DNA of 64,000 nt from the NCBI GenBank assembly GCA_001592145.1, contig BCWJ01000015.1, positions 1 through 64,000 on the forward strand, in the 5' to 3' direction. Shown here one piece after another: positions 14,166-28,616 of the stretch (positions are counted from its first letter, which is position 1; every line of letters starts with the position of its first letter). The notes below the pieces were generated by a model. That model was given only the letters and a program-made list of their open reading frames with translations, ran no database searches and had not been told where the DNA came from. The position numbers and the translations under genes are program-made. Source of the stretch: Xylanimicrobium pachnodae JCM 13526 = NBRC 107786 (GTDB taxonomy: Bacteria; Actinomycetota; Actinomycetes; Actinomycetales; Cellulomonadaceae).

Positions 14166-14618
14166 ATGACCGTCCCTCGCGGGCCGAAGCCGATCAGCCG
14201 GGCTCGGCGTGCCGTCTACAACGCGGTGGGTTTCGGGTGCGTGGTGCTGGGCGTGATCGGGGTTTTCGTGCCCGTGTGGCCCACCACCGTGTTCGTGATC
14301 GTCGCGTCGATCCTGTTCGCGCGGGCCAACCCGCGCATGTACACGTGGCTGCTCACCAACCGCCTGCTGGGCCCGTACCTGGAGAACTGGCACCACAAGA
14401 CGGGCATCACGATGGCGTTCAAGATCCGCACCTGCGTGATCCTGTGGGTGGGGCTGGGCGTGTCCATGTACTTCGTGTCCGCCACATGGCTCTACGTGCT
14501 GCTCGCCGCCGTCGGCGTCGGGGTGACGTGGCACGTGTTCGCGATCAGGACCCGGCGGGCTGTGCCGGGCGCACGATCCGCTCGTCGGGGATCACGGCGA
14601 CCCCGGCGATCTCGATGA
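14166..14618 (+). CDS. DUF454 (YbaN) family inner-membrane protein
   Basis: A 150-residue membrane protein with the DUF454 pattern: a first hydrophobic segment ending in GVFVPVWPTTVFVIVASILF, then RANPRMYTWLLTNRLLGPYLENW, then two further hydrophobic segments. The function of this family is unknown. The ATG at 14166 has GGAAGG upstream. The last 74 bases overlap the 3' end of the convergent RidA gene (14545-14618), and the corresponding residues are Arg-rich and poorly conserved, suggesting the frame has run past an ancestral stop. Confidence 0.88.
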   Translation: MTVPRGPKPISRARRAVYNAVGFGCVVLGVIGVFVPVWPTTVFVIVASILFARANPRMYTWLLTNRLLGPYLENWHHKTGITMAFKIRTCVILWVGLGVSMYFVSATWLYVLLAAVGVGVTWHVFAIRTRRAVPGARSARRGSRRPRRSR

Positions 14619-14982
14619 GCGCTTCGGGCTGCCACAGGCCGGTCACGCCGATGCCGGCCATCGCCGGGTAGACGGGCCCTGCCAGTTCCCTCCATACCGC
14701 GCCGATCTGGCGTCCGTGAGCCTGGTAGCCGGGGATGTCGGTGAGGTAGATCGTGATCGACACGAGGTCGCCCGGCACGCCGCCGGCGGCACGCAGCGTG
14801 GTCAGCACGTTGCCGAAGGCTTGCCGGAACTGCTCGACGATGCCGCCGTCGACGATCCGCATGGCCACGTCGAGCGCCGTCTGGCCGCCGAGGTACAGCG
14901 TGTTGCCGCTGAGCGTGCCGTGGGAGTAGCCGCTGGGGGCGGGCAGGGTGGCCGGGTTGACCGGCAGGGGCGTCGGGTTCAT
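14545..14982 (-). CDS. RidA-family enamine/imine deaminase-like protein
   Basis: A 145-residue YjgF/YER057c/UK114-family protein. Diagnostic features are SGNTLYLGGQTALD, TIYLTDIPGY, and the family ending PEALIEIAGVAVIP. In place of the Arg of canonical RidA (IEIEAVA), the C-terminal strand reads IEIAGVAV, so it belongs to a divergent subfamily, some of whose members act in aromatic catabolism. The ATG at 14982 has no ribosome-binding site, but a TTGCCA-N18-TACGCT promoter ends seven bases before it, so a leaderless message is likely. It is divergent from the FAH-family gene with only 58 bp between, pointing to coregulation with the aromatic cluster. A role in hydrolysing an enamine intermediate is inference. 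Confidence 0.88.
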   Translation of the reverse strand: MNPTPLPVNPATLPAPSGYSHGTLSGNTLYLGGQTALDVAMRIVDGGIVEQFRQAFGNVLTTLRAAGGVPGDLVSITIYLTDIPGYQAHGRQIGAVWRELAGPVYPAMAGIGVTGLWQPEALIEIAGVAVIPDERIVRPAQPAGS

Positions 14983-14989
14983 GCCGGGC

Positions 14990-15019
14990 AGCGTAGAACG
15001 GGCATTGACAACTTGGCAA
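14990..15019 (-). promoter_or_regulatory. Leaderless-type promoter of the RidA gene
   Basis: On the minus strand, -35 TTGCCA (15019-15014) and -10 TACGCT (14995-14990) are 18 bp apart; the -10 box ends seven bases before the ATG, as in leaderless actinobacterial transcripts. Confidence 0.6.
15005..15019. promoter_or_regulatory. Candidate operator TTGACAACTTGGCAA at the divergent catabolic promoter
   Basis: A 15-bp near-palindrome (also a TTGNCAA direct repeat) that contains the -35 TTGACA of the plus-strand operon and overlaps the -35 TTGCCA of the RidA promoter. A bound repressor would block both. The PaaX-family protein encoded at the end of the plus-strand operon is the obvious candidate; no binding site knowledge confirms this. 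Confidence 0.5.
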
Positions 15020-15040
15020 CGTTCGTGCGAAAACTGAAAT

Positions 15041-15841
15041 ATGCAAATGACGACGGTCGTCACCCCCCGCGGCACCACCGCCGCGGCCTGGCACAGCGGC
15101 GGCTGGCACGCCCTGCCCGCCCCCGATCTGTCCGCCCTGCTCGCCGCGGGCGGGCCGTGGGAACCCGGCGAACCCCTCCCGGACGCGACGCCCACCTTGC
15201 CGCTGCCCCGGCCCGGCAAGGTGATCTGCTGCGGGCTCAACTACGGCGACCACATCGCCGAGATGGGGCGCACCGCACCCACCCACCCCACGCTCTTCGC
15301 CAAGTTCGCCGACACCCTCCTCGCCGACGGCGCCGACCTGCGCCTGCCCGCCGGGCACGACGCCGACTGGGAGGCCGAGCTCGCCGTCGTCGTCGGGCAC
15401 GAGCTGCGCCACGCCGACGAGGCCACCGCGCGCACCGCCATCGCCGGCTACACCGTGGCCAACGACGTCTCCGTGCGCGACTGGCAGAACCGCACCCCCC
15501 AGTGGTTCCAGGGCAAGGCGTGGGACGCCACCACCCCGTTCGGACCCGTCGTCGTCACCACCGACGAGATCGACCCCGAGGCCGGCGTCGAGGTGATCTG
15601 CCGCGTCAACGGCAACGAACGCCAACGGGGCAACACCCGCACCCTCGTGTTCTCCCCCGCCGCCCTGCTCGCCTACGTCTCCACCTTCACCGTGCTGCGC
15701 CCCGGCGACGTCGTGCTCACCGGCACCCCAGGCGGCGTCGGCATGGGAATGACGCCCCCGCAGTACCTCGCCGACGGCGACGTCGTCGAGACGCACATCC
15801 CCGGCATCGGCACCCTGACCAACACGGTCCGGCTCATCTGA
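15041..15841 (+). CDS. Fumarylacetoacetate hydrolase (FAH) family protein
   Basis: A 266-residue FAH-fold enzyme that should act on a C-C bond of a beta-diketone-type acid or isomerise a hydroxymuconate-like acid. Visible are VICCGLNYGDHIAEMG, the acidic metal-binding strand WEAELAVVVG (about residue 110), the substrate-loop motif WFQGKAWDATTPFGP and the family ending DVVLTGTPGGVGMGM. Relatives include fumarylpyruvate hydrolase and 5-carboxymethyl-2-hydroxymuconate isomerase; substrate cannot be fixed by sequence. It opens the operon FAH-tesB-monooxygenase/OYE-thioesterase-paaX. The ATG at 15041 (or 15047) lacks a ribosome-binding site, so a leaderless or atypical start is likely. Confidence 0.92.
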   Translation: MQMTTVVTPRGTTAAAWHSGGWHALPAPDLSALLAAGGPWEPGEPLPDATPTLPLPRPGKVICCGLNYGDHIAEMGRTAPTHPTLFAKFADTLLADGADLRLPAGHDADWEAELAVVVGHELRHADEATARTAIAGYTVANDVSVRDWQNRTPQWFQGKAWDATTPFGPVVVTTDEIDPEAGVEVICRVNGNERQRGNTRTLVFSPAALLAYVSTFTVLRPGDVVLTGTPGGVGMGMTPPQYLADGDVVETHIPGIGTLTNTVRLI

Positions 15842-15856
15842 CGGGAAGGACCCACC

Positions 15857-16810
15857 ATGACCTCCGCACCGGCCACCACTGCTGCTCCCACCTGCGCGCC
15901 CACCTCCGAACCCCTGACCGACGCGCTCACCCTCACGCCCACCACCGCGCAGGTGTACGACGTCGCCTTCACCGCCACCACCGGACCCTGCCCCTGGCCC
16001 AAGGCCTACGGCGGGGACATGGTGGCCCAGGCGCTCGCCGCCGCCATGCGCACCGTCGCCTCCCCCAAGACGGTGCACTCCACGCACGCGTACTTCCTGC
16101 GTCCCGTCGACGTCGGCGCCCAGGTCCGCTACGAGGTCGAGGTGCTGCGCGACGGCCGCGGCTACAGCACCCGCCACGTGCGCGGCTACCAGCACGGCAA
16201 GCCCGTGTACGTGTGCCTCGCCAACTTCGCCGCGGGCGAGCCCGGCCGCGACTACCAGCCCGGCATGCCCGACGACGTGCCCGCCCCCGACGAGCTGTCG
16301 ACGTCGGCCGACTACCTCGCCACGCTCGACGACGCCGCCCTGCCGCCCGCCGCACACGACTACTGGGCCAGCGGGCGCAGCGTGGACATGCGCCACCTGC
16401 CCGGCCCGGTCTACCTGCGGGTCGACGGCGCCGCCGCACCGCACCAGGCCGTGTGGGTGCGGCCGTTCGACGCGCTGCGGCCCGTCAGCGGGCTCACCGA
16501 CGCCCAACGCGACACCGCCGCGCTGGCCTACCTGTGCGACTACACCATCCTCGAACCCGCGCTGCGGGTGCTCGGCCTGTCCTGGGCCGACGAGGGACTG
16601 GTCACCGCCAGCCTCGACCACGCCATGTGGTTCCACCGACCCGTCGCCATGGGCGACTGGCTCCTCTACGCCCAGGAGGCGTGGTCCGTGGCCGACGGCC
16701 GCGGCAGCGCGACGGGCCGCTTCTTCACCACCGACGGCGTCCTCGTGGCCACCGTCGTCCAGGAAGGCATGATCCGGGCCACCACGCCCGCGAAGGGAGA
16801 GCTGTCATGA
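15857..16810 (+). CDS. Acyl-CoA thioesterase II (TesB-like, double hotdog)
   Basis: A 317-residue double-hotdog thioesterase that hydrolyses acyl-CoA to acid plus CoA. First hotdog: WPKAYGGDMVAQALAAAMRTV and STHAYFLRPVDVG (about residues 50-90). Second hotdog: LDHAMWFHRPVAMGDWLLYAQE with the catalytic-type Asp (about 255). The N-terminal 30 residues are Thr/Pro/Ala-rich and unlike typical TesB. A GGAAGG ribosome-binding site precedes the ATG at 15857. The gene follows FAH by 15 bp and overlaps the monooxygenase start by 4 bp (ATGA). In this operon the likely task is releasing CoA from a ring-modified or ring-opened aromatic intermediate. Confidence 0.92.
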   Translation: MTSAPATTAAPTCAPTSEPLTDALTLTPTTAQVYDVAFTATTGPCPWPKAYGGDMVAQALAAAMRTVASPKTVHSTHAYFLRPVDVGAQVRYEVEVLRDGRGYSTRHVRGYQHGKPVYVCLANFAAGEPGRDYQPGMPDDVPAPDELSTSADYLATLDDAALPPAAHDYWASGRSVDMRHLPGPVYLRVDGAAAPHQAVWVRPFDALRPVSGLTDAQRDTAALAYLCDYTILEPALRVLGLSWADEGLVTASLDHAMWFHRPVAMGDWLLYAQEAWSVADGRGSATGRFFTTDGVLVATVVQEGMIRATTPAKGELS

Positions 16811-19191
16811 AGATCGCGATCGTGGGTGGCGGCCCCGGCGGCCTGTACTTCGCCACCCTCATGAAGGGGCTCGACCCCACGCACGACATCACCGTGTGGG
16901 AGCGCAACGCCGCGGACGACACGTTCGGGTTCGGCGTCGTCTTCTCCGACGAGACCCTCGGCAGCATCGACGGCGCCGACCCGGTGGTCCACGAACGCAT
17001 GGAGGCGAGCTTCGCGCGCTGGAGCGACATCGACGTCACGTTCGACGGGCACCCGTTCACCGTGGGTGGGCAGGGGTTCGCCGCCATGTCCCGCAAGGAG
17101 CTGCTCTCGATCCTCCAGCAGCGGGCCGCCGAGCTCGGCGTGACCGTGCACTTCGGTACGCCCGCCCCCGACCTGGACCTGCTGCGCACCACGCACGACC
17201 TGGTGCTCGCCGCCGACGGCCTCAACTCCGCCATCCGCACCAAGCACTCCGACCACTTCCGCCCCACCCTGGACCGGCGGCCCAACAAGTACATCTGGTT
17301 CGGCACCGACCTGGTGTTCGAGGCGTTCCAGTTCTTCGTCAAGCGGACCCCCTGGGGGGTCATGCAGATCCACGGCTACCCGTTCTCCGCCACCGGCTCC
17401 ACGTTCATCGTCGAGATGCACGAGGACGTGTGGCGCCGCGCCGGGCTCGACGCCACCGAGCGCGAGCAGTTCCCGCCCGGCGTCTCCGACGAGTACGCCG
17501 TCGACCGCATCGCCGAGATCTTCGCCGACGAGCTCCAGGGCCACGCGATCCTCACCAACAACTCCAAGTGGATCAACTTCCACACCGTGCGCAATGAGCG
17601 GTGGTCGCACGAGAACGTCGTGCTGCTGGGCGACGCCGCCCACACCGCGCACTTCTCCATCGGCTCGGGCACCAAGCTCGCCATGGAGGACGCGCTCGCG
17701 CTCGCCGCCTGCCTGCACGAGCACGACGCCCTGCCCGAGGCACTGGCCGCCTACGAGGCCGAGCGCAAGCCCGTGGTCGAGTCCACCCAGCGCGCCGCGC
17801 AGGCCTCCCTGGAGTGGTTCGAGAACATCGGCATGTATGCGGACCAGGAGCCGTCGCAGTTCGTGTTCAACCTGTTGACCCGCTCGCGGCGCATCACCTT
17901 CGAGAACCTCAAGGAGCGCGACGCCGCCTTCGCCGGGCGCATCGAGTCCGCGTTCGCGGCCGCGCACGGGCTGGCACATCCCGGCGACGACGCCGCACCC
18001 GCGATGTTCCAACCCGTGCGCATCGGCGCGCTCGAACTCAAGAACCGCGTCGTGCTCTCGCCGATGGACATGTACTCGGCCAGGGACGGCGTCGTCAACG
18101 AGTTCCACCTGGTGCACCTGGGTTCCAAGGCCATGGGCGGTGCCGGTCTGGTCATGACCGAGATGACGTGCGTGTCCCCGCAAGGGCGCATCACGCCCGG
18201 CTGCCCCGGTCTGTGGACCGACGAGCAGGCCGCCGCGTGGCGCACCGTCACCACGTTCATCCATGAGCGCTCGACGGCGAAGGTGGGCGTCCAGCTCGGC
18301 CACTCGGGGCGCAAGGGCTCCACCAAGCTCATGTGGGAAGGCATCGACCAGCCGCTTGACGAGGGCAACTGGGAGGTGATCGGACCCTCGGCGCTGCCCT
18401 ACGGCCGCGGCTGCCACGTGCCGCGCGAGGCGACGCGCGCCGACCTGGACCAGGTCACCGCCGACTTCGTGGCCGCCGCCCGCCGCGCCGTCGACGCCGG
18501 GTTCGACCTGGTCGAGGTGCACGCCGCGCACGGGTACCTGCTCAGCTCGTTCCTGTCCCCGGTGTCCAACCAGCGCACCGACGAGTACGGCGGCAGCCTC
18601 GAGAACCGGTTGCGCTACCCGCTCGAGGTGTTCGCTGCCGTCCGCGCCGCCGTACCCACCACGATCCCCGTCACCGTGCGCATCTCCGCCACCGACTGGG
18701 TGCCCGACGGCAACACCGAGCACGACGCCGTCGAGATCGCCCGCGCGTTCGTCGCCGCCGGCGCCGCCGCCATCGACGTCTCCTCCGGGCAGGTCACGAA
18801 GGACGAGCGCCCCGCGTTCGGCCGCTCCTACCAGACACCGTTCGCCGACCGGATCCGTCACCAGGTGGCCGCGCCCGCCGGCGTCGCCGTCATCGCCGTC
18901 GGCGCCATCTCCTCCTACGACGACGTCAACTCGATCCTGCTGGCCGGACGCGCCGACCTCTGCGCGCTGGGCCGCACCCACCTCTACGACCCGAGCTGGA
19001 CGCTGCACGCGGCAGCCGAGCAGGGCTACCGGGGCGACGCCGCCGCGTGGCCCGAGCCGTGGGCGGCAGGTCGCCGCAAGCCTCCGACGTCGCGCACCGA
19101 CAAGGTGCCGCCACGCCTGGCGCTGCTGCGTGAAGACAGCGACACCGTGCCCCACCTGCGGTGGCGCGCCGGTGCTACGGTTCCGGCGTGA
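16807..19191 (+). CDS. Fused FAD monooxygenase / Old Yellow Enzyme (2-aminobenzoyl-CoA monooxygenase/reductase or salicylyl-CoA 5-hydroxylase/oxidoreductase type)
   Basis: A 794-residue bifunctional flavoenzyme. Residues 1-385 form a class-A FAD monooxygenase: GGGPGGLYFATL near residue 6 and GDAAHTAHFSIGSGTKLAME (about 271-290). Residues about 398-765 form an Old Yellow Enzyme reductase: RIGALELKNRVVLSPMDMYS, VQLGHSGRKG, and HAAHGYLLSSFLSPVSNQR with the FMN/substrate histidine region. This exact fusion is known from 2-aminobenzoyl-CoA monooxygenase/reductase of Azoarcus evansii, which hydroxylates then reduces the ring of anthraniloyl-CoA; annotation pipelines also call it salicylyl-CoA 5-hydroxylase/oxidoreductase. 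Start and stop overlap both neighbours by 4 bp (ATGA, GTGA). Substrate is an aryl-CoA; amino versus hydroxy is unresolved. Confidence 0.93.
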   Translation: MKIAIVGGGPGGLYFATLMKGLDPTHDITVWERNAADDTFGFGVVFSDETLGSIDGADPVVHERMEASFARWSDIDVTFDGHPFTVGGQGFAAMSRKELLSILQQRAAELGVTVHFGTPAPDLDLLRTTHDLVLAADGLNSAIRTKHSDHFRPTLDRRPNKYIWFGTDLVFEAFQFFVKRTPWGVMQIHGYPFSATGSTFIVEMHEDVWRRAGLDATEREQFPPGVSDEYAVDRIAEIFADELQGHAILTNNSKWINFHTVRNERWSHENVVLLGDAAHTAHFSIGSGTKLAMEDALALAACLHEHDALPEALAAYEAERKPVVESTQRAAQASLEWFENIGMYADQEPSQFVFNLLTRSRRITFENLKERDAAFAGRIESAFAAAHGLAHPGDDAAPAMFQPVRIGALELKNRVVLSPMDMYSARDGVVNEFHLVHLGSKAMGGAGLVMTEMTCVSPQGRITPGCPGLWTDEQAAAWRTVTTFIHERSTAKVGVQLGHSGRKGSTKLMWEGIDQPLDEGNWEVIGPSALPYGRGCHVPREATRADLDQVTADFVAAARRAVDAGFDLVEVHAAHGYLLSSFLSPVSNQRTDEYGGSLENRLRYPLEVFAAVRAAVPTTIPVTVRISATDWVPDGNTEHDAVEIARAFVAAGAAAIDVSSGQVTKDERPAFGRSYQTPFADRIRHQVAAPAGVAVIAVGAISSYDDVNSILLAGRADLCALGRTHLYDPSWTLHAAAEQGYRGDAAAWPEPWAAGRRKPPTSRTDKVPPRLALLREDSDTVPHLRWRAGATVPA

Positions 19192-19649
19192 CCGGAGAAC
19201 CCCTCGCCGTCGGTGTCGCCCGCACGCGTGTGGAGTGGGTCGACACCGACGCCGCCGGCATCTACCACAACTCCACGGTGATCCGGTTCGTGGAGTCCGC
19301 CGAGTCACGCCTCATGGTGGAGCGGGGGCTGCCCGACTACTTCCCGTCCAGCCCGCGCGTCCGGTTCGAGGCCGACTTCGAGGCGCCGCTGTTCTTCACG
19401 CAGGACGTCACCACGTCCGTCTGCCTGATGCGCGTGGGCACCAGCTCCATGCACTGGGAGTTCGAGGTGTGGGGCGAGGAGCTCGACGGCCGCCCCCGGC
19501 ACCGCGCCGCACGCGGCCGGTACGTGACCGTGCACATCGGCGTCGGGAACCGTGCGGGGCACGGGGCCACGAGCGTGCCGTGGCCTACCGACTGGGTGAC
19601 CGCCCTCGCGGGCGAGGGCGCGCTCGACGGCGCGCTGCCCCTGCCGTGA
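19188..19649 (+). CDS. Acyl-CoA thioesterase, 4-hydroxybenzoyl-CoA thioesterase type
   Basis: A 153-residue single hotdog protein. The signature VEWVDTDAAGIYHNSTVIRFVES (residues about 13-35) carries the catalytic Asp and the His-Asn of YbgC/4HBT thioesterases. It begins with a GTG overlapping the monooxygenase stop (GTGA) and its own stop overlaps the next start the same way, so the three proteins are translationally coupled. Being the second thioesterase of the operon, after a TesB type, it presumably acts on a different CoA ester: a small aromatic acyl-CoA would fit the 4HBT family. Confidence 0.9.
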   Translation: MTGEPLAVGVARTRVEWVDTDAAGIYHNSTVIRFVESAESRLMVERGLPDYFPSSPRVRFEADFEAPLFFTQDVTTSVCLMRVGTSSMHWEFEVWGEELDGRPRHRAARGRYVTVHIGVGNRAGHGATSVPWPTDWVTALAGEGALDGALPLP

Positions 19650-20500
19650 CGGCCGAACCACCGGGCAGCGGGGCCCCCGCCACCCGACAGCTACGCACCA
19701 CCGTGGTGACCTTCCTCGGCGCCGTCGTGCGGCCCCTGGACGGGTGGGTGCCCGTCGGCGCCGCCGTCGAGCTGCTCACGCAGCACGGGCTCGACGAGCC
19801 GGGCGTGCGCACCGCGATCCACCGGCTCAAGAGCAAGGGCTGGCTCGCGTCGCAGACCCGGGACGGGCTGCGCGGCTACACGCTCACCGAGCTGGCCCGC
19901 ACCGAGTTCGCCGCCGGCGACCAGGTCATCTGGCACGCGCGCACCCCACCGGCCCTGGCGGACGGCTGGTGCCTCGTCAACTTCAGCGTGCCCGAGTCGA
20001 AGCGCGCGCTGCGCCACCAGCTCCGCTCGCACCTGGCCGCGCTCGGCTTCGGCAACGTGGGCACGGCCCTGTGGCTCGCCCCCGCGCGCCTGCGCGAGGC
20101 CGGCACCCACGCCGTGGCGGACCTGGGGCTCGACGCCTTCACGACCATCTTCACGGGCGCGTACCACGGCCCGCAGGATCTGGCCGCGCTCGTCGCCGAG
20201 ACCTGGGACCTGGACTCCGTGGCTCAGGGGTACCGGGGGTTCGCCGCCTCGTTCGGCGGCGTGGCGGACGACGTCGAGCAGGCGCCGCCCGCGCCCCGCG
20301 AGGCGTTCACGCTCTACCTGTCGGTGCTCGACGCGTGGCGGCGCCTGCCCTTCCGCGACCCGGGGCTGCCCCGCGAGGTGCTGCCGGCGAGTTGGCCGGG
20401 CCCCGCCGCCGCCGCCGTCTTCGAGCGCCTGGTCGAGGCCGTGGAGCGCCCGGCGCTCGCCCACGCAGCCACCTACTGGCCCGCCCCGCCACGCGCATAG
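19646..20500 (+). CDS. PaaX-family transcriptional repressor
   Basis: A 284-residue regulator with an N-terminal winged helix (TVVTFLGAVVRPLDGWVPVG, then EPGVRTAIHRLKSKGWLASQ, about residues 18-70) and the PaaX C-terminal region (DGWCLVNFSVPESKRALRHQ near residue 108 and LPREVLPASWPGPAAAAVFE near the end). PaaX repressors sense aryl-CoA thioesters such as phenylacetyl-CoA, which matches an operon built around an aryl-CoA. It starts with a GTG overlapping the thioesterase stop. Likely target: the divergent promoter at 14983-15040, giving induction by the aryl-CoA intermediate. Target and ligand are inference. Confidence 0.92.
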   Translation: MTAEPPGSGAPATRQLRTTVVTFLGAVVRPLDGWVPVGAAVELLTQHGLDEPGVRTAIHRLKSKGWLASQTRDGLRGYTLTELARTEFAAGDQVIWHARTPPALADGWCLVNFSVPESKRALRHQLRSHLAALGFGNVGTALWLAPARLREAGTHAVADLGLDAFTTIFTGAYHGPQDLAALVAETWDLDSVAQGYRGFAASFGGVADDVEQAPPAPREAFTLYLSVLDAWRRLPFRDPGLPREVLPASWPGPAAAAVFERLVEAVERPALAHAATYWPAPPRA

Positions 20501-20578: not shown

Positions 20579-21682
20579 TCAGAAGGTCGTGTCGGGGCGC
20601 AGGCCCTTCTTGACCAGGCGGGGCATGACCTCCTGGGCGAAGTACTCCAGCTCGCCCACGTAGTCGACGAACGCCATCGTGATGCCACCGAACCCGGCCT
20701 TCGCGAAGCGCTCGATCTCGTCGGCGACGTCGTCGGGCGAGCCGATGAGCGGGCACGTGCCGTGCCCGGCCGCGAACCGGCTGCGGAAGTTCGCCAGCAG
20801 GTCCTTGCTGAACGACTGGGCGTGCAGGCCCTGGAGGCGCATGAGGTTGTCGACGGCGTCCCAGTCGGCGTTCTCCTCGGCGTAGTAGTGCAGATACTCC
20901 TCCGCCTCCTTCTTGGTGGGGCGGCACACCACGTGCGTGGGCGTGAGCACGCCCGCCTCGCGGCCGAGCGCGGCCGAGTTGGCCTTGAGCTCGGTCACCA
21001 CGTTCGCGCCCTCCTCGGCGCTGCCGACGATGGTGAACACGAAGTCGGCGTTGCGCGCCGCGTACGCCTTGCCCTGCGCGGACGAGCCCGCGTTGAGGAT
21101 GGGCAGGCGACGCGCGGCCGGCTTCGGCATCGACTCGATGGCCTCCAGGTTCCAGAACCGCCCCTTGAGGTCATAGCGGCCGTCGCGCGACCAGAGCGTG
21201 GTCAGGACGTCGACCCACTCCTGGGCGAGCTCGTAGCGCGAGTCGTGGTCCTGCGGCAGGTCCACGCCCATGGCCACGTACTCGGGCTGGTTCCAGCCGG
21301 CGACGACGTTGACGCCGATGCGACCCGGGGCCATCTGGTCGATCGTGGCGAGCTGCTTGGCCGTGACGGCCGGGTGGTTGAACGCCGTGTGGACCGTGGC
21401 GAACGCGTTGAGCCGCGTGGTGTTCGCGAGGATCGCGGTGGCCCACGGGACCGGCTCGAGCACACCCTCGTGGAAGTTGGTCTCGCCGCCGTACCCGATC
21501 CAGCGGGCGATCGGCAGCATGAAGTCGATGCCCGTCGCGTCGGCCAGCTTGGCCAGGCGCAGGTTGTCCTCCCACGACGCCGACCAGCGCTCCGGGATCG
21601 TGGTGACGGCCAGGCCGCCCGTGCAGTTGGACGAGAACAGTCCGAGCCGGAAGTGGTCCGCGTCGAGGATGGGGATGCCCAT
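20579..21682 (-). CDS. LLM-class flavin-dependent monooxygenase (RutA/alkanesulfonate-monooxygenase-like)
   Basis: A 367-residue TIM-barrel flavin monooxygenase using reduced FMN supplied by the partner reductase encoded just upstream. Recognisable segments are WEDNLRLAKLADATGIDFML, RIGVNVVAGWNQPEYVAMGV (about residue 130), and PILNAGSSAQGKAYAARNAD (about 190-210), all laid out as in RutA, which opens the pyrimidine ring. AGGAG precedes the ATG at 21682. RutA-type enzymes use flavin peroxide or N5-oxide chemistry to break amide or other carbon-heteroatom bonds in N-heterocycles, so attack on an indole/oxindole-type ring would fit the cluster; the substrate is not determinable here. Confidence 0.9.
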   Translation of the reverse strand: MGIPILDADHFRLGLFSSNCTGGLAVTTIPERWSASWEDNLRLAKLADATGIDFMLPIARWIGYGGETNFHEGVLEPVPWATAILANTTRLNAFATVHTAFNHPAVTAKQLATIDQMAPGRIGVNVVAGWNQPEYVAMGVDLPQDHDSRYELAQEWVDVLTTLWSRDGRYDLKGRFWNLEAIESMPKPAARRLPILNAGSSAQGKAYAARNADFVFTIVGSAEEGANVVTELKANSAALGREAGVLTPTHVVCRPTKKEAEEYLHYYAEENADWDAVDNLMRLQGLHAQSFSKDLLANFRSRFAAGHGTCPLIGSPDDVADEIERFAKAGFGGITMAFVDYVGELEYFAQEVMPRLVKKGLRPDTTF

Positions 21683-21719: not shown

Positions 21720-22199
21720 TCAGCGCTGGAGGGTCATCGGGACGTGATCGGCGGCCGTCATGGCGCAGACCTGCCCGATGAGGTAGACGTGGTCGCCGAC
21801 GTCGAACGTGTGCGCGACCCGGCACTCGAGCCGTAGCGGGACGTCGTCGAGGGCCAGCACGGGGAGCCCGTCGAGGCCCGGCGCCGTCTCGACGCCGTCG
21901 AACCGGTCGGGCTTCGACGCGGCGAAGCGCGAGACGAGGTCGGTGTGGTGCCCGGCCATGACGTGCACGGCGTAGCCGGTGACGGCGACCCACTCCTCGA
22001 ACCGGGTCGACGTCTTGTCGATGCACCAGCCCACCAGTGCGGGGTCCAGCGACGCCGAGTGGAAGCTGTTGACGGTCTTGCCCAGGGGGCCGGTCGTCCC
22101 GTTCGCGGTGATGATCGCGACGCCCGTGGGCCATCGGGCGAGCTGGCCGCGAAGCGACGACGGTGTCACCTCAAGTGTGTTGGCTGTCACACGGATCAT
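21720..22199 (-). CDS. Flavin reductase (RutF/HpaC-like), partner of the LLM monooxygenase
   Basis: A 159-residue flavin reductase-like protein that uses NAD(P)H to make free reduced flavin. The family layout LARWPTGVAIITAN, then VNSFHSASLDPALVGWCIDK (FMN-binding), a GHHTDLVSRFA region and LECRVAHTFDVGDHVYLIGQV is clear. Encoded 37 bp upstream of the LLM gene on the same strand; the two form a two-component monooxygenase. The promoter region (22200-22361) is shared with the divergent AraC-family gene and contains a CTATCC direct repeat that may be the activator site. Confidence 0.92.
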   Translation of the reverse strand: MIRVTANTLEVTPSSLRGQLARWPTGVAIITANGTTGPLGKTVNSFHSASLDPALVGWCIDKTSTRFEEWVAVTGYAVHVMAGHHTDLVSRFAASKPDRFDGVETAPGLDGLPVLALDDVPLRLECRVAHTFDVGDHVYLIGQVCAMTAADHVPMTLQR

Positions 22200-22232
22200 G
22201 CGATGATGCTGTGCCGGGGGACGCCGGGCAGG

Positions 22233-22260
22233 CTATCCGCCCACGGTGGACGACTATCCA
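22233..22260 (+). promoter_or_regulatory. Candidate AraC-family binding site: CTATCC direct repeat, 21-bp phasing
   Basis: CTATCCGC at 22233 and CTATCCAC at 22254 are in direct orientation exactly 21 bp (two helical turns) apart, the arrangement bound by AraC/XylS proteins. They lie between the flavin-reductase and AraC-family genes. The same word occurs inverted upstream of the cyclase-family gene (23405-23412). Confidence 0.5.
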
Positions 22261-22361
22261 CTCAGCGCGTACCTTTCACGTGCGTGACGATCGTTGCACG
22301 TTCGACACAGATGTCGGGCAGGGACGACAGGATGGTCACGGCAGGTCGGCGAGGAGGCCAC

Positions 22362-23333
22362 ATGACGCGAGTGACGACGCCGCTGGGATCGCACGGCGTG
22401 CTGCACACCACCGACGTGGACGACGCGCGCACGTCGATCACCGCATCGCTCGCACCGCACCGGCTCACCGCCGTGCCCGGCGCCCGGCCGTTCGAGGCCC
22501 GGCACAACGCCGCCGCGCTCGACCGCGTGAGCCTGCACTACATCGACTACGGCGCGGAGGCAGAGGTCACCGCCGAGCGCCTCGACTTCCACCTGGTGCA
22601 GATCCCTCTCAGCGGCCTCACCACCGTGTCCACCGGTACGCGCACCGTGAGCGCCGGTCCCCGCAGCGCCACCCTCACGGGCCCCGACGAGACGGTCCGC
22701 ATGCGGTACTCGGCCGGCAACCCGCGTCTCATGGTGCGCATCTCCCCCGAGCTGCTGCGCGGGCGCCAGGCCGTCGCAGCCGCGGGCGGCGTCGTCGCCC
22801 CACCGCAGTCCACCACGTCCGTGGACCTCGGCAGCGGGGCGGGGCGGAGCTGGCGCGGTTTCGTGGACCTGGTCATCGCCGACCTGGAGCGCGACGGGGG
22901 CCTGACCCAGTCACCCATCACCTCAGCCACGCTCCAGGTGGCTCTGGCCGACGGACTCATCGCAGCGCTCGCCGCACCCGCCGAACCGGAACCCGACACC
23001 CGCACCCTGTCCGAGCGCGTGGTGCGCCGCGCAGCCCGGCTCATCGAGGACCACTGCGCGGAGCCGCTCGGCACGCCCGACATCGCCGACTCCGTGGGCG
23101 TGTCGATCCGCGCGCTCCAGGCCGGGTTCCGCTCACGCCTGGGGACGACGCCGATGGCGTACCTGCGCCAGGCGCGACTGACCCGCGTGCACGACGCGCT
23201 CATGGACGGCAGCGCGGTCTCCGTGGCTGAGGCGGCGCACCGCTGGGGCGTCACCCACCTGGGCCGCCTCTCGGGCGACTACCGGGCCACGTTCGGCGAG
23301 TCCCCCAGCGAGACGCTCGCGCGCGCACGCTGA
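22362..23333 (+). CDS. AraC/XylS-family transcriptional regulator (FeaR-like architecture)
   Basis: A 323-residue activator: an N-terminal cupin-like sensing region of about 190 residues (LHYIDYGAEAEVTAERLDFH around residue 60) and a C-terminal double helix-turn-helix (VVRRAARLIEDHCAEPLGTP, IADSVGVSIRALQAGFRSRL, then MAYLRQARLTRVHDALMD, about residues 218-310). The second HTH is unusual in its final part (AAHRWGVTHLGRLSGDYRATF) but retains the FG(E)SPSE ending. The sensing region resembles FeaR-type regulators of aromatic-amine catabolism. GAGGAGG precedes the ATG at 22362. It is divergent from the LLM/flavin reductase pair and upstream of the cyclase-ior-cupin genes, so it probably activates both. 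Confidence 0.9.
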   Translation: MTRVTTPLGSHGVLHTTDVDDARTSITASLAPHRLTAVPGARPFEARHNAAALDRVSLHYIDYGAEAEVTAERLDFHLVQIPLSGLTTVSTGTRTVSAGPRSATLTGPDETVRMRYSAGNPRLMVRISPELLRGRQAVAAAGGVVAPPQSTTSVDLGSGAGRSWRGFVDLVIADLERDGGLTQSPITSATLQVALADGLIAALAAPAEPEPDTRTLSERVVRRAARLIEDHCAEPLGTPDIADSVGVSIRALQAGFRSRLGTTPMAYLRQARLTRVHDALMDGSAVSVAEAAHRWGVTHLGRLSGDYRATFGESPSETLARAR

Positions 23334-23376
23334 GCCGGCCCGACCCCACCGGCCTGCGCCGAGCCGTGCCGTGCCG

Positions 23377-23489: not shown

Positions 23490-24260
23490 ATGTCCGTCAT
23501 CTCCGCACTGCTGACCGGTCTCGCCACGGGCGAGGTCGAGATCATCGACCTCACGGCGCCCCTGTCCCCCGACACCCCGGTGCTCGAACTGCCGGCGCCG
23601 TTCGCCAACACCATCCCGCTCTCGCTCGAGGTGGTCAGCGACTTCGACGACGACGGCCCGGCGTGGGGCTGGAACAACATCCACACCGGCGAGCACACGG
23701 GCACCCACCTGGACGCCCCGGTGCACTGGATCACCGGCCGGGACGGCTACTCCGTGGACACCATCCCGCCGTCGCGCCTCATCGGCCCCGCGATCGTCGT
23801 GGACGTCACCGCCGAGGTCGCCGAGAACCCCGACTTCCTCCTGGAGCCGGTGCACCTGGAGAAGCACGTCGCCGAGCACGGCCCGCTCCCCGACGGCGCC
23901 TGGCTGGTGCTGCGCACCGGCTGGGGCCGGTACAGCAAGGACGCCGCAGCGTTCGCCAACGTCGACGAGACCGGCTCCCACACGCCCGGGCTCACACCGG
24001 CGGCCGCCGAGTGGCTCGCCGCGTCCCCCGTGACGGGCGTGGCCGTGGAGACCGTGGGCATCGACGCCGGGCAGGCCGCCAGCCTGGAACCGCCGTTCCC
24101 CGCGCACTACCACCTGCTCGGCGCCAACAAGTTCGGCCTCACCCAGCTGCAGAACATCGACAGGCTGCCCACCACGGGCGCCGTGATCATCGCGTCGCCG
24201 CTGCCCATCGTGGGCGGCACCGGCTCACCCGCCCGCGCCTTCGCGATCGTCCCCGCCTGA
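23490..24260 (+). CDS. Cyclase-family metal hydrolase (kynurenine formamidase / isatin hydrolase superfamily)
   Basis: A 256-residue metal-dependent amidohydrolase of the cyclase family. The defining metal motif HxGTHxDxPxH is present as HTGEHTGTHLDAPVHW (about residues 74-89), and the distal glutamate/histidine region VAVETVGIDAG is near residue 190. Members with this fold include bacterial kynurenine formamidase (about 210 residues) and isatin hydrolase (about 260), both opening or cleaving an amide next to an aromatic amine; the length is closer to isatin hydrolase. The ATG at 23490 follows AAAGG. Nine bp separate it from the ferredoxin-oxidoreductase gene, so they are one operon. Isatin as substrate is inference. 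Confidence 0.88.
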   Translation: MSVISALLTGLATGEVEIIDLTAPLSPDTPVLELPAPFANTIPLSLEVVSDFDDDGPAWGWNNIHTGEHTGTHLDAPVHWITGRDGYSVDTIPPSRLIGPAIVVDVTAEVAENPDFLLEPVHLEKHVAEHGPLPDGAWLVLRTGWGRYSKDAAAFANVDETGSHTPGLTPAAAEWLAASPVTGVAVETVGIDAGQAASLEPPFPAHYHLLGANKFGLTQLQNIDRLPTTGAVIIASPLPIVGGTGSPARAFAIVPA

Positions 24261-24269
24261 GCGCCGACC

Positions 24270-26444
24270 ATGGCCGAGAGATCATTCGCGCACGAGGTGC
24301 GCAAGCTCCGCATGGGTGCCGGGAGCACCTTCACCGGCGAGGGCATCCTGGCCGTCACGAAGGCACTGCTCCAGTCCGGGGTGGCCTACGTGGGCGGCTA
24401 CCAGGGCGCCCCCATCTCCCACCTCATGGACGTGCTCGGCGACGCGCACGAGATCCTCGATGAGCTGGACGTCCACTTCGAGAACAGCGCGTCCGAGGCG
24501 ACGGCGGCCGCCATGCTGGCCGCGTCCGTCAACTACCCGCTGCGCGGGGCGATCACGTTCAAGTCCACCGTGGGCACCAACGTGGCCTCCGACGCGCTGG
24601 CCAACCTGGCGAGCGGCGGCGTCAAGGGTGGCGCCCTCGTCATCGTCGGGGAGGACTACGGCGAGGGCTCCAGCATCATGCAGGAACGCTCGCACGCCTT
24701 CGCCATGAAGTCCCAGATGTGGCTGCTCGACCCCCGCCCCAACATCGACGCCATCGTGCGCTCGGTGGAGGCCGGGTTCGAGCTCTCCGAGGCGAGCAGC
24801 ACGCCCGTGATGCTCCAGCTCCGGCTGCGTTCCTGCCACCTGTACGGCAGCTTCACCGCCAAGGACAACGTGCGCCCGCCGATGACGGTCAAGGACGCCG
24901 CGGAGCACCCGTCACGCCAGCTCGATCGGATCGTGCTGCCGCCCGCGAGCTTCCTGCACGAGAAGGAGAAGATCGAGGACCGCTGGCCCGCCGCCGTCGA
25001 CTACATCACCAGCCACGGCCTCAACGAGGTGCTGGGCGAGGGCACCAGCGACATCGGCATCATCGTCCAGGGTGGTGTGTACAACACGCTCAACCGGGCC
25101 ATGGAGCTGCTGGGGGTCTCGGACGCCTACGGCAACACGCAGATCCCCACCTACGTCATGAACGTGACCTACCCGGTGATCGACTCCGAGATCCTCGACT
25201 TCGTCAAGGACAAGCGGGCCGTGCTGCTGGTCGAGGAGGGGCAGCCCGACTACATCGAGCAGAACCTCAACGCGATCCTGCGCCGCGCCGGGTCCGACGT
25301 CGCACTGCACGGCAAGGACCTGCTGCCCGTCGCGGGCGAGTACACGGCGACGGCCGTGACGCGCGGCCTGCACGCGTACCTGAGCAAGTACCTGCCGAAC
25401 GTCGCGCCCGGCACCCCCACGCTGCTGCTGCCGCACAGCGACCCGCGCAGCCCGTTCGCGGAGCGCGTCTCCGCCGAGGTGGTGCGCACGCGCCCGCCGG
25501 GCCTGTGCACCGGCTGTCCCGAGCGACCCATCTTCTCCGCGCTCAAGCTGGCCGAGCGCGAGACCGGGGAGCACCACGTCAGCGCCGACATCGGCTGCCA
25601 CCTGTTCGCGATCAACGAGCCGTTCAACCTGGGCGCCACCACCATGGGCTACGGCCTCGGCTCGGCCGGCGCCGCCGCGCTCAACTCGAAGGACGCCGAC
25701 CGGCCCTCGATCGCCGTCATGGGCGACGGCGGGTTCTGGCACAACGGCCTGACCAGCGGTGTGGGCAACGCCGTGTTCAACCAGAGCGACCAGCTCGTGC
25801 TCGTGGTCGACAACGCGTACAGCGCCGCGACGGGCGGGCAGGACGTGCTCTCCTCACGCGCCGACTCCGAGCTGCGCTCCACCAAGCACCCCATCGAGAA
25901 GGCCGTGCGCGGCATCGGGGTGAAGTGGGCGCGCACCGTGACGAACACCTACCAGATCGGCAAGCTGCGCGACCTGTTCGTCAAGGCGCTGACCACCGAG
26001 GAGCCCGGACCCAAGGTCATCGTCGCCCAGTCCGAGTGCTCCCTGAACAAGCAGCGGCGCGAGAAGCCGTTGCGCGCGCAGGCCATCAAGGACGGCAAGC
26101 GTGTGGTCAAGGAGCGGTTCGGCGTCGACGCCGACACCTGCACGGGCGACCACGCCTGCATCCGCGTCTCGGGCTGCCCGTCGCTGACCATCAAGGCCAA
26201 CCCGGACCCGATGCGCACCGACCCGGTGGCCACGGTGCTCGACTCCTGCGTGGGCTGCGGCACCTGCGGCGCCAACGCGCACGCGGCGTCGCTGTGCCCG
26301 TCGTTCTACCGCAGCGACCTGGTCTACAACCCCACCTGGCGGGACACCGGCCTCGCCAGGCTCCGCAAGGGCTGGATCGGGGCGCTGTCCCGGGGCGTGG
26401 AGCGCCGCGCCGCCCGCTTCGAGGTTGCCGAGGTGACCGCATGA
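24270..26444 (+). CDS. Indolepyruvate (2-oxoacid) ferredoxin oxidoreductase, alpha-type subunit
   Basis: A 724-residue TPP-dependent enzyme that oxidatively decarboxylates an aryl 2-oxoacid to an aryl-CoA with reduction of ferredoxin. The pyrimidine-binding domain comes first (GYQGAPISHLMDVL, FENSASEATAAAM), then a domain with the TPP/Mg motif GDGGFWHNG...VVDNAYSAATGG (about residues 484-520), then a C-terminal ferredoxin-like region with two cysteine sets. The first, C-x5-C-x5-CP (about 621-637), has three cysteines; the second, C-x2-C-x2-C-x9-CP (about 659-677), has four. This pattern is that of the aerobic subfamily rather than archaeal IorA. It overlaps the beta subunit by ATGA. Confidence 0.93.
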   Translation: MAERSFAHEVRKLRMGAGSTFTGEGILAVTKALLQSGVAYVGGYQGAPISHLMDVLGDAHEILDELDVHFENSASEATAAAMLAASVNYPLRGAITFKSTVGTNVASDALANLASGGVKGGALVIVGEDYGEGSSIMQERSHAFAMKSQMWLLDPRPNIDAIVRSVEAGFELSEASSTPVMLQLRLRSCHLYGSFTAKDNVRPPMTVKDAAEHPSRQLDRIVLPPASFLHEKEKIEDRWPAAVDYITSHGLNEVLGEGTSDIGIIVQGGVYNTLNRAMELLGVSDAYGNTQIPTYVMNVTYPVIDSEILDFVKDKRAVLLVEEGQPDYIEQNLNAILRRAGSDVALHGKDLLPVAGEYTATAVTRGLHAYLSKYLPNVAPGTPTLLLPHSDPRSPFAERVSAEVVRTRPPGLCTGCPERPIFSALKLAERETGEHHVSADIGCHLFAINEPFNLGATTMGYGLGSAGAAALNSKDADRPSIAVMGDGGFWHNGLTSGVGNAVFNQSDQLVLVVDNAYSAATGGQDVLSSRADSELRSTKHPIEKAVRGIGVKWARTVTNTYQIGKLRDLFVKALTTEEPGPKVIVAQSECSLNKQRREKPLRAQAIKDGKRVVKERFGVDADTCTGDHACIRVSGCPSLTIKANPDPMRTDPVATVLDSCVGCGTCGANAHAASLCPSFYRSDLVYNPTWRDTGLARLRKGWIGALSRGVERRAARFEVAEVTA

Positions 26445-28102
26445 CCAGCGACCGCACGACCTCATGGACCACGGGCCACCGGCCCATCACCATCGCGATC
26501 CTCGCCATGGGCGGCGAGGGCGGCGGCGTCCTGGCCGACTGGATCGTGGCCGTGGGCGAGACCGCCGGGTACCACGCACAGAACACCTCGGTGGCCGGCG
26601 TCGCCCAGCGCACCGGCGCCACCGTGTACTACGTGGAGCTGTACCCGAGCGGCGACGCCGGCCCCGACGACGCGCGCAGCGAGCCCGTGCTCAGCCTGTT
26701 CCCCACGCCGGGCGAGGTGGACGTCGTCATCGCCTCCGAGCTCATGGAGGCGGGCCGCGCCATCCAGCGCGGGTTCTGCACTCCCGACCGGACCACGCTC
26801 ATCGCCTCGACCAACCGCGTCTACTCGATGGACGAGAAGCTCGCGCTGGGCGACGGCCGCGTGGACAGCAACACCCTGCTGGAGGCGGCGCACGCCGGGG
26901 CGCAGCGGTTCATCGGGGCCGACTTCATGGAGCTCGCCTCCGCGGCCCGCAGCGTCATCAGCGCCGCACTGTTCGGGGCCCTCGCCGGGTCGGGCACCCT
27001 GCCGTTCCCGCGCACCGGCTTCGAGGACGCGATCCGGGCCAGCGGCAAGGGCGTGGACGCGTCGCTCGCCGCGTTCGCCTCCGGGTACGACGCCGCCCAG
27101 CGGCCCGCGCCGCGGCCCACCGCCGCGCCGTCCGGCAGCGGGCCGGTCTCCGTGACCATCGGGCGCAGCCGCCCCGTCGATCCCGCCGAGGAGGCGGCCG
27201 AGGCCGCCGCCAAGCGGCGCGAGGAGGTGGCCGCCACCGACCCCGGGTCGCTCGTGGGCCCCGCACTCCAGGCGCACGCCGCCCGCGTGGCCGCCGACTT
27301 CCCCGCGGCGGCCCGGTCCATGCTGCTGCACGGCGTGGTGCGCACCGCGGTGTTCCAGGGCCCGCGGTACACCGAGGCCTACCTGGACCGGGTGGCGCGC
27401 CTCGCCGCGGTCGAACCCGACGACGGCACCGCCCGGCTCACCACGGAGGCGGCCCGGCACGTGGCCCTGTGGATGTGCTACCAGGACACCATCCAGGTGG
27501 CGCTGCAGAAGATCCGGCGGCGTCGGCTCGACGGCGTGCGCGCCGAGGCGAAGGCCGCGGACGACCAGCTCCTCAACGTGCACGAGTACCTGCACCCGCA
27601 GCTCGACGAGATCGCCGACACCCTGCCCGTCGCACTGGGCAAGGCCGTCGCCGGATCGGCCTGGTTCGGGAAGCTGGTGCGCAAGGTCACCCACAACGGC
27701 ATGGTGGTCAACACCACGGGCGCCATCGGGTTCTCGATGCTGTGGGCCATGGCGGCGTTCCGCCCGCTGCGGCCACGCTCGCTACGGTTCGCCCGCGAGC
27801 AGACCGCCATCGACGCCTGGCTGGACCTCGCGCTGACCGCCGCCGCCGTCGACTACGACCTCGCCTGCGAGATCGTCGAGTGCCAGCGCGTGCTCAAGGG
27901 CTACGGCGCCACGCACCAGCACGGCGAGGAGAGCTTCACCACGCTGCTCGCCCAGGCGGACGCCCTGATCGGCGCCGAGGACGCCGCCGCCACGCTGGTG
28001 CGGCTGCGCGACGCGGCCCTGGCCGACGAGGACGGCACCGCGCTGTGCTCCGCGGTCGCCGCCCTGCCCCAGTCGGAGCCCGCCCTGAGCCACGCGCACT
28101 GA
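26441..28102 (+). CDS. Indolepyruvate oxidoreductase beta-type subunit with long C-terminal extension
   Basis: A 553-residue protein. Residues about 15-215 are the gamma/beta domain of 2-oxoacid oxidoreductases (ILAMGGEGGGVLADWIVAVG, NTSVAGVAQRTGATVYYVEL). After a Pro/Ala linker near 225-245 comes a 300-residue helical extension (about 250-545) absent from the 200-residue archaeal IorB; it is the DUF6537-like domain seen in the aerobic subfamily, of unknown role. The start ATG overlaps the alpha stop by 4 bp, giving equal expression of both subunits. The extension's Trp/Cys/Tyr-containing helix HVALWMCYQDTIQVALQKI near 340 is conserved-looking and may contact the alpha subunit. Confidence 0.9.
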   Translation: MTSDRTTSWTTGHRPITIAILAMGGEGGGVLADWIVAVGETAGYHAQNTSVAGVAQRTGATVYYVELYPSGDAGPDDARSEPVLSLFPTPGEVDVVIASELMEAGRAIQRGFCTPDRTTLIASTNRVYSMDEKLALGDGRVDSNTLLEAAHAGAQRFIGADFMELASAARSVISAALFGALAGSGTLPFPRTGFEDAIRASGKGVDASLAAFASGYDAAQRPAPRPTAAPSGSGPVSVTIGRSRPVDPAEEAAEAAAKRREEVAATDPGSLVGPALQAHAARVAADFPAAARSMLLHGVVRTAVFQGPRYTEAYLDRVARLAAVEPDDGTARLTTEAARHVALWMCYQDTIQVALQKIRRRRLDGVRAEAKAADDQLLNVHEYLHPQLDEIADTLPVALGKAVAGSAWFGKLVRKVTHNGMVVNTTGAIGFSMLWAMAAFRPLRPRSLRFAREQTAIDAWLDLALTAAAVDYDLACEIVECQRVLKGYGATHQHGEESFTTLLAQADALIGAEDAAATLVRLRDAALADEDGTALCSAVAALPQSEPALSHAH

Positions 28103-28148
28103 CGACCCCCGCACCACGACCGCCCGCACCACCGCAAAGGACGCGATC

Positions 28149-28616
28149 ATGACCACCGCACCCGGCACCCTCAAGCAGCCCACCCTCAAGCAACCCACCC
28201 TCAAGCAGCTCAGCGTGCAGCGCAGCAGCGAGCTGCCCGTCGCCCCCGGCCAGACGGCCAACGCCCGCCGCATCTCCGGCGTCAGCAAGGAGAACACCCA
28301 GGTCAAGGACCTGTGGTTCGGCAAGGTGCACACCGGGCCCGGCGAGGTCTCCGACCCCCACCACCACGGCGAGGCGGAAACGGGCGGCTACGTGTTCAAG
28401 GGCCACGGATTCATCCGCTTCGGCGAGCGGTACGAGGAGATCGTGTACCTCGAGGAGGGTGACTTCGTCTACGTACCACCCTTCGTGCCGCACATCGAGG
28501 GCAACCTCAGCCACAGCGAGGAACTCGTGTGGCTCACGACGCGCAACCCCGACAACATCGTGGTGAACCTCGAGGATCAGGACGTCGCCGACATCGACAT
28601 CGCGTACGTCGACTGA
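28149..28616 (+). CDS. Small single-domain cupin protein
   Basis: A 155-residue cupin. Motif 1 is visible as HHHGEAETGGYVFKGHGFIRFGE (about residues 74-96, His-His-His-x-Glu metal ligands) and motif 2 as EGDFVYVPPFVPHIEGN (about 106-122), so a metal centre is likely. The size does not match bicupin gentisate or homogentisate dioxygenases. The N-terminus carries three in-frame copies of TLKQP from a 15-bp tandem repeat, which suggests slippage. AAAGGA precedes the ATG. It lies 46 bp after the ior genes, in the same operon. Possible roles: ring-cleavage or other oxygenase, or a small-molecule sensor; not decided by sequence. Confidence 0.85.
   Translation: MTTAPGTLKQPTLKQPTLKQLSVQRSSELPVAPGQTANARRISGVSKENTQVKDLWFGKVHTGPGEVSDPHHHGEAETGGYVFKGHGFIRFGERYEEIVYLEEGDFVYVPPFVPHIEGNLSHSEELVWLTTRNPDNIVVNLEDQDVADIDIAYVD
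28164..28208 (+). repeat. 15-bp tandem repeat inside the cupin gene
   Basis: Three imperfect copies of CACCCTCAAGCAGCC encoding TLKQP repeated; the copies are almost identical at DNA level, so the expansion is recent. Confidence 0.75.

Follow-up and report, generated by a model that had tools for sequence, protein, structure and literature searches.

The aerobic 2-aminobenzoyl-CoA pathway of Azoarcus (Aromatoleum) evansii employs a fused monooxygenase/reductase that acts on anthraniloyl-CoA, and it relies on a ligase together with beta-oxidation-like genes. The anaerobic phenylglyoxylate:acceptor oxidoreductase forms an aryl-CoA by oxidative decarboxylation of an aryl glyoxylate. An anthranilate cassette is known from plasmid pAL1 of Arthrobacter sp. 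Rue61a and from Rhodococcus, and anthranilate-CoA ligase activity has been demonstrated for a ligase of the Rue61a plasmid (PMC3534580, in excerpt). IorAB, isatin and isatinic acid have already been connected through the auxin-degrading iad locus of Variovorax, Achromobacter and Bradyrhizobium, which converts indole-3-acetic acid (IAA) to anthranilic acid and of which IadAB is an exclusive marker (PMC9613470, in excerpt). IadC-J are assigned in a 2025 preprint, whose main text, in the parts examined, mentions neither iadA nor iadB (PMC12633357); the examined parts of both iad texts assign no enzyme to the isatinate to anthranilate step of bacterial isatin and auxin catabolism and give IadAB no role (PMC9613470, PMC12633357). 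Here, we compare with these systems an island at positions 14545-28616 of a 64-kb window (the whole stretch of DNA analysed) from the 4.0-Mb genome of Xylanimicrobium pachnodae, in which genes of the anthranilate cassette stand beside those for an isatin-hydrolase-family enzyme (hereafter IH) and an IorAB-type 2-oxoacid:ferredoxin oxidoreductase.

Gene content of the island

The island is real and coherent: the 13 genes named by a first-pass annotation are all present at 14545-28616 as open genes, in minus- and plus-strand blocks, according to open reading frame calls and domain profiles (Table 1). We consider it probable that they form a composite catabolic island in which isatin is converted to isatinate and then, through IorAB, to anthraniloyl-CoA, making a ligase dispensable. 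With a little less assurance, we also favour assigning to this IorAB subfamily an undescribed activity, that of an isatinate:ferredoxin oxidoreductase which forms anthraniloyl-CoA; this would also be the function of IadAB in auxin degraders.

On Rue61a pAL1 the anthranilate cassette runs RidA, FAH, cupin, TesB, AMP-binding ligase, fused FAD monooxygenase/old yellow enzyme (hereafter ACMR) and PaaX. Two Rhodococcus plasmids carry the same genes plus a thioesterase, arranged as divergent halves. FAH and TesB do not appear in the incomplete gene table of an Arthrobacter plasmid that otherwise carries RidA, cupin, ligase, ACMR, thioesterase and PaaX. Set against the full list (RidA, FAH, cupin, TesB, ligase, ACMR, thioesterase, PaaX), the window has every member in a similar order, including the thioesterase of the Rhodococcus cassettes, except that it lacks the AMP-binding ligase that precedes the fused gene in Rue61a and Rhodococcus and that its cupin is displaced behind iorB. 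Elsewhere the cassette neighbours kynureninase, tryptophan 2,3-dioxygenase and aqdC1, and the Rue61a host substrate is quinaldine; these neighbours and this substrate point to anthranilate. The window's ACMR has the fusion that characterizes the 2-aminobenzoyl-CoA monooxygenase/reductase type and scores 1220.9 bits against NF006101 (cut-off 1078); we assign it to this type, with anthraniloyl-CoA as its predicted substrate.

As the first-pass annotation had stated, no AMP-forming ligase lies in the island: a profile search found eight AMP-binding matches in the genome and none inside the window, the best NCBIfam assignments of the eight being FadD-type, acetate-CoA, FadD11-like and MenE-like, several of them below cut-off. 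A dedicated CoA ligase elsewhere would have told against the scheme. On Rue61a pAL1, ACMR is immediately preceded by an AMP-binding gene that we equate by position with the reported anthranilate-CoA ligase; this gene had no match in the genome at E<=1e-40, the sole such case among 30 genomes searched; this absence covers the AMP-forming type, CoA transferases and CoA ligases of other chemistry not having been searched. Where ACMR is at least 77% identical to the window's, the ligase stands between TesB and ACMR in every one of the seven IorA-free cassettes (L136-L142) and in only one (L043) of the four accompanied by IorA; the other three (window, L044 and L045) show a 4-base TesB/ACMR overlap.

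The cupin had been left outside the original scheme. It lies between FAH and TesB in L044 and L045, and the window cupin is 47-51% identical to the FAH-adjacent cupins of L044, L045 and L046; we take it to be a member of the anthranilate-CoA cassette, as on the Rue61a and Rhodococcus plasmids, with only its place changed. Its position behind iorB would tie the cassette operon and the IH-IorAB operon together. An AlphaFold2 prediction from four sequences gave a mean pLDDT of 37, and no solved structure matched the cupin at E<=0.001.

IH and the IorAB subfamily

The four best solved-structure matches of IH are all isatin hydrolases (top match 5nmp, E 1.6e-78). The metal and catalytic residues reported for isatin hydrolase LaIHA, His69, His73, Asp75 and His79 (PMC6117287, in excerpt), are conserved in the aligned stretch HTGEHTGTHLDAPVHW, and the WXW/FXW aromatic pocket motif is present, PAWGWNN aligning with PAWKWHN of isatin hydrolase A. 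We call the enzyme a member of the isatin-hydrolase family, for which Mn-dependent hydrolysis of isatin is the predicted activity.

IorAB has the features of the 2-oxoacid:ferredoxin oxidoreductase superfamily, with a thiamine diphosphate (ThDP) site (motif at 485), a POR-type second subunit, and two C-terminal Fe-S motifs whose seven cysteines are invariant in 81 of 81 aligned IorA sequences. IorA reaches only 265 bits against the indolepyruvate:ferredoxin oxidoreductase equivalog TIGR03336 (cut-off 651), which places it in a different subfamily. No solved structure matched IorA at E<=0.001. The C-terminal extension of IorB (gene at 26441-28102) is DUF6537, a domain of unknown function.

Among the matches listed, the IorA sequences nearest to the window's belong to Nocardioides (89% and 86%) and to Pimelobacter (87%); within the 238 genomes of the window's own order, IorA occurs at E<=1e-150 only in the window's own (1/238). 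The island therefore looks acquired, maybe recently. In a survey of the best 80 of 594 IorA matches, 46 loci hold IH, and 15 of the other 34 genomes have IH elsewhere. A bicupin module, gentisate-dioxygenase-like in length and company, occurs at IorA loci L049, L050, L062, L084, L099, L114, L124, L125, L127, L162 and L185/L206, often accompanied by FAH, CN-hydrolase and Asp/Glu-racemase (maleate-isomerase-like) genes. It could convert 5-hydroxyanthranilate through maleamylpyruvate, maleamate and maleate to fumarate; in the open-licence PubMed Central papers that a search listed, maleamate did not occur alongside 5-hydroxyanthranilate.

The iad loci of Variovorax and Achromobacter encode IorA proteins ~64-67% identical to the window's, and iad loci, like the island, contain an isatin-hydrolase-family gene, which we take as IadI by position and annotation. 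The island thus shares with them an IadAB relative and an isatin-hydrolase-family gene. It differs in lacking Rieske IadCDE and the side-chain genes, in having AraC and PaaX instead of MarR regulators, and in continuing via the fused monooxygenase; the Rieske enzyme IadDE, which attacks IAA, has no counterpart among the island genes, the part of the genome searched for it. An AMP-forming ligase is present at 29 of 32 Rieske-bearing iad-like loci, which we did not count against the proposed route because the excerpted preprint assigns IadF to the side chain (PMC12633357).

Co-occurrence and partner replacement

The first-pass annotation had suggested a search for genomic co-occurrence. A single sample of 394 Actinomycetes genomes (the class sample) contained ACMR in 66, IH in 58 and IorA in 10; IH and ACMR occurred together in 25, and all 10 IorA genomes were among these, with hypergeometric probabilities, which ignore kinship, of 2e-9 for IH, 1e-8 for ACMR and ~1.5e-13 for both. 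The 10 genomes are spread over four family codes (f1, f7, f102 and f108), and IorA lies on one contig with ACMR in eight of them and with IH in nine. The grouping of genes in the island is more than chance.

A ThDP decarboxylase-type enzyme accompanies IH where IorA is missing. At a threshold of at least 60% identity it was present in 47 of 48 IorA-free IH genomes (some matches partial), within 2 kb of IH in 45 and within 150 bp in 34, and in none of the 10 IorA genomes; in the window's own genome, a different contig carries a 39% match, and one genome (G627) has IH with neither partner. The enzyme contains all three TPP domains and, in two examples scanned, falls under every curated NCBIfam cut-off shown. 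A phylum-wide IH search gave 43 matches outside the window, and at 23 of the 29 loci examined the ThDP enzyme (threshold 45%) lay within the 1.5-kb flanks. On an IH tree of 89 sequences (56 with IorA, 26 with the ThDP enzyme and 7 for which the stretch examined shows neither), built by quick search with no bootstrap, the partner label requires five changes and none of the 89 rows carries both partners. This suggests that the ThDP decarboxylase-type enzyme and IorAB, two unlike enzymes, replace each other behind IH. IorA is a ThDP-dependent 2-oxoacid enzyme; if the other ThDP enzyme is one too, the product of IH would most simply be a 2-oxoacid, like isatinate. The pair of IH and ThDP enzyme is widespread in actinobacteria (L014-L042, L145, L147 and L148, besides the IH genomes of the class sample).

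Two loci can be set side by side. In G278 (L142), a ligase-containing cassette adjoins IH, the ThDP enzyme and three upstream genes, for an SDR, an FMO-type monooxygenase and a FAD amine-oxidase-like protein; in Pimelobacter (L045), a ligase-free cassette adjoins IH-IorAB and the same three upstream genes, which are 78, 70 and 72% identical to those of G278. The SDR, FMO-like and amine-oxidase-like trio is found near IH at L045, L053, L104, L123 and L142, and the amine-oxidase-like gene alone at L046 and others. These genes occupy the place taken in the window by the LLM monooxygenase and its flavin reductase, and L053 combines the two kinds.

Distribution of the ligase

We counted a ligase at at least 50% identity, using any of four ligase queries at the locus and the Rue61a query genome-wide. 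It was present in all 56 IorA-free ACMR genomes, at the locus in 51 and elsewhere in five (G654, G612, G465 as a contig-cut piece, G651 and G246), and was missing from three of the 10 IorA genomes of the class sample, namely the window's, G545 and G578 (Fisher 0.0026, ignoring kinship). Where an ACMR genome has IH paired with the ThDP enzyme, the ligase is present in 14 of 14 cases, and the ACMR genomes found to be ligase-free all bear IorA. With a general AMP-binding profile, a match occurred at 2 of the 16 IorA loci that contain ACMR but no Rieske genes versus 55 of 59 IorA-free ACMR loci, a rough contrast, as several of the 16 loci have less than 3 kb on one side of ACMR and L047 and L045 have the ligase elsewhere. 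Among seven named genomes checked, Nocardioides acrostichi, which has the window's gene set, is the only one that lacks the ligase genome-wide.

We first considered, and then rejected, the idea that IorAB and anthranilate-CoA ligase strictly exclude each other: the pattern looks near-perfect at the locus and fails genome-wide, where 7 of 10 IorA genomes have the ligase. We keep the weaker statement that loss of the anthranilate-CoA ligase is seen only with IorA.

Proposed route

An indole-type compound would first be converted to isatin by upstream enzymes, among which we would place, probably, the LLM monooxygenase and flavin reductase. IH, from its family, would turn isatin into isatinate (2-aminophenylglyoxylate), and IorAB, with ThDP, Fe-S centres, CoA and ferredoxin, would carry out the new step, oxidative decarboxylation of isatinate to anthraniloyl-CoA. 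The fused monooxygenase/reductase would dearomatise this thioester in the manner of the aerobic 2-aminobenzoyl-CoA pathway already described, and the breakdown would be completed by the RidA-FAH-cupin-thioesterase cassette, which has precedents in Arthrobacter and Rhodococcus. Because the thioester would be formed from the 2-oxoacid, the ATP-dependent anthranilate-CoA ligase would be dispensable, and in the window it has been lost.

The island shares the proposed use of the fused enzyme with the Azoarcus pathway, unlike which it has no ligase and beta-oxidation-like genes; an Azospirillum plasmid carries the Azoarcus-type set (ligase, beta-oxidation-like) together with IorAB. The reaction proposed for IorAB is of the same kind as that of phenylglyoxylate:acceptor oxidoreductase, from which the island differs by an apparently aerobic setting, a two-subunit IorAB with DUF6537 and a proposed ortho-amino substrate. 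Removal of the enamine nitrogen by RidA is plausible; the individual steps that the first-pass annotation gave to RidA, FAH and the thioesterases are guesses. In Rue61a, according to the excerpted report, a CoA ester of C7H8O4 was seen only when the cells had grown on anthranilate (PMC3534580); this would be consistent with a hydrolytic deamination, whether carried out by RidA or in another way.

Evidence against the route and alternative explanations

Several results weigh against this route, and the ligase supplies the first. Seven of the 10 IorA genomes of the class sample retain it, and in two of these, G519 and G668, a mere 9-10 kb separates it from ACMR. Inside the cassette it persists in the closest island (L043), Nocardioides sp. 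CER19 being a named strain with this arrangement, and Pimelobacter has one elsewhere in its genome. Ligase-free genomes are few, and G545 and G578 belong to one genus. Four of nine IorA-bearing class loci have an AMP-binding gene within the stretch examined; in one locus this is the cassette ligase, and in the other three the gene is only ~28-29% identical to that ligase. IorAB and the ligase are consequently not strict alternatives.

Other results concern the substrate. IH and IorAB may act on another cyclic 2-oxo-amide or aryl 2-oxoacid (a substituted isatin, phenylglyoxylate or 2-hydroxyphenylglyoxylate, for example), with the fused enzyme receiving another aryl-CoA such as salicylyl-CoA. 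The family NF006101 is indeed named salicylyl-CoA 5-hydroxylase/oxidoreductase, and the window IH has GLTQ in place of the published GLQC/GLAS signature of tested isatin hydrolases. Its relatives show GLTQ (31), GLTS (5), GLAQ (3), GITS (2) and GITQ (1) as well as GLQC (33) and GLAS (6), with 9 unread by the pattern. Moreover, a search at E<=1e-40 found IH missing from 19 of the 80 surveyed IorA genomes. Enzymes of this IorA subfamily may therefore act on other substrates as well, and we rejected IH as an obligatory partner of the subfamily. We nevertheless regard a different substrate in the island as unlikely, given that the cassette's neighbours elsewhere and its quinaldine plasmid represent routes to anthranilate and that the Rue61a enzyme is a demonstrated anthranilate-CoA ligase (PMC3534580).

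The Variovorax data bear on a second alternative, in which isatinate gives free anthranilate (by IorAB, by another enzyme or via 2-aminobenzaldehyde) that a promiscuous acyl-CoA ligase encoded elsewhere then activates. In the excerpted preprint, iadC-K2 in a deletion background leads to accumulation of C8H7NO3 and C7H7NO (PMC12633357), formulas that fit isatinate and 2-aminobenzaldehyde. The background lacks genes 77-53, and iadA is gene 72 and iadC gene 70 (PMC9613470, in excerpt); with iadB presumably between them, the background should lack iadAB. To the authors, C8H7NO3 is simply an intermediate that follows IadI (PMC12633357); its build-up may reflect the missing IadAB, which would speak for the route proposed above. 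Yet iadC-K2 alone fully restored anthranilic acid (PMC12633357), so IorAB is not needed for anthranilate in Variovorax and a second route exists. Several FadD-like ligases in the window's own genome would suit such a scheme. We judge it distinctly improbable for the island, as ACMR genomes pairing IH with the ThDP enzyme all keep the ligase and those found without one all carry IorA.

That an unrelated IorAB operon merely adjoins an anthranilate cassette decayed by ligase loss, as sporadic IorA, possible recent acquisition and the annotation of relatives as indolepyruvate oxidoreductase might allow, is hardly credible, since IorA lies close to ACMR also in Nocardioides, Pimelobacter, Nocardia, Leucobacter, Tsukamurella and small uncultured actinobacteria, the genes are open with translational overlaps, and IorA falls far under the indolepyruvate equivalog cut-off.

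Organization of the locus

Table 1. Features of the island in the window
Feature	Position	Strand	Evidence or comment
RidA family (enamine/imine deaminase)	14545..14982	-	PF01042, E 7.7e-20; divergent from FAH gene
FAH-family hydrolase	15041..15841	+	PF01557, E 1.8e-68; cassette member in relatives too
TesB-like acyl-CoA thioesterase	15857..16810	+	PF02551/PF20789
TesB/ACMR 4-base overlap, place of the missing anthranilate-CoA ligase	16807..16810	+	ligase gene of ~1.65 kb there in relatives
Fused FAD monooxygenase/old yellow enzyme (ACMR, 2-aminobenzoyl-CoA monooxygenase/reductase type)	16807..19191	+	PF01494 + PF00724
4HBT-type thioesterase	19188..19649	+	PF13279, E 8.4e-7
PaaX-family repressor	19646..20500	+	PF07848/PF20803/PF08223
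LLM flavin-dependent monooxygenase, SfnG/RutA-like	20579..21682	-	PF00296, E 4.7e-53; PDB 8t0u, RutA
Flavin reductase, presumed LLM partner	21720..22199	-	PF01613, E 1e-27
Divergent intergenic region, putative shared control region	22200..22361		between LLM/flavin reductase and AraC-IH-IorAB, judged from gene coordinates
AraC-family regulator, AndR-like	22362..23333	+	PF14525, PF12833; NF041686 149 bits, below cut-off 350
Isatin-hydrolase-family enzyme (IH)	23490..24260	+	PF04199; best PDB matches 5nmp, 4j0n, 5nnb, 5nna
IorA, ThDP and Fe-S alpha subunit, 2-oxoacid:ferredoxin oxidoreductase	24270..26444	+	TIGR03336 265 bits, cut-off 651
IorB with C-terminal DUF6537	26441..28102	+	PF01558 + PF20169; PRK08312 688 bits, cut-off 348
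Small cupin	28149..28616	+	PF07883; taken as cassette cupin relocated behind iorB

The RidA gene most likely starts at ATG 14982 and not at 15240, the 145 residues from 14982 giving the family match; L044 has a RidA in the same position with 85% identity, and RidA is likewise in the corresponding position on Rue61a pAL1. The 4HBT gene has a counterpart in position in L043, L045 and L139-L142. The first-pass annotation held that its scheme used every enzyme class except the cupin, but the LLM and flavin reductase pair had been given no role; among the loci compared, LLM relatives at 58-87% identity occur at seven, all in IorA genomes, and the pair probably acts upstream of isatin. Downstream of the island, a minus-strand frame at 28686-32303 encodes 1205 residues that look surface protein-like by eye.

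Discussion

Of the sequence of steps first proposed, from isatin through isatinate to anthraniloyl-CoA, linkage, partner replacement and ligase loss speak for the key IorAB reaction, which is likely right; ligase loss as a general rule does not hold, with 7 of 10 IorA genomes keeping the gene. The claim that no described pathway has this gene set must be narrowed: the novelty is smaller than stated, as the iad locus (PMC9613470, in excerpt) and the anthranilate cassette are known. What remains is the combination of genes and the implied IorAB activity, neither of which we found in searches of the open-licence PubMed Central literature. These searches yielded no paper joining isatinic acid with anthraniloyl-CoA, which is no proof of absence; among the papers listed, isatinic acid, a ferredoxin oxidoreductase and aminobenzoyl-CoA are co-mentioned only in PMC9613470, where, in the parts examined, aminobenzoyl-CoA belongs to the anaerobic iaa pathway.

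The comparison gives a testable assignment for the isatinate step and for IadAB, oxidative decarboxylation to anthraniloyl-CoA at no ATP cost, and it suggests that a ThDP enzyme and IorAB replace each other behind IH and that the presence of the ligase gene tends to follow suit. If the assignment is true, the opening of the isatin ring would be coupled directly to CoA-thioester catabolism, and the breakdown of a plant hormone and of indole would be linked to aryl-CoA pathways in actinobacteria.

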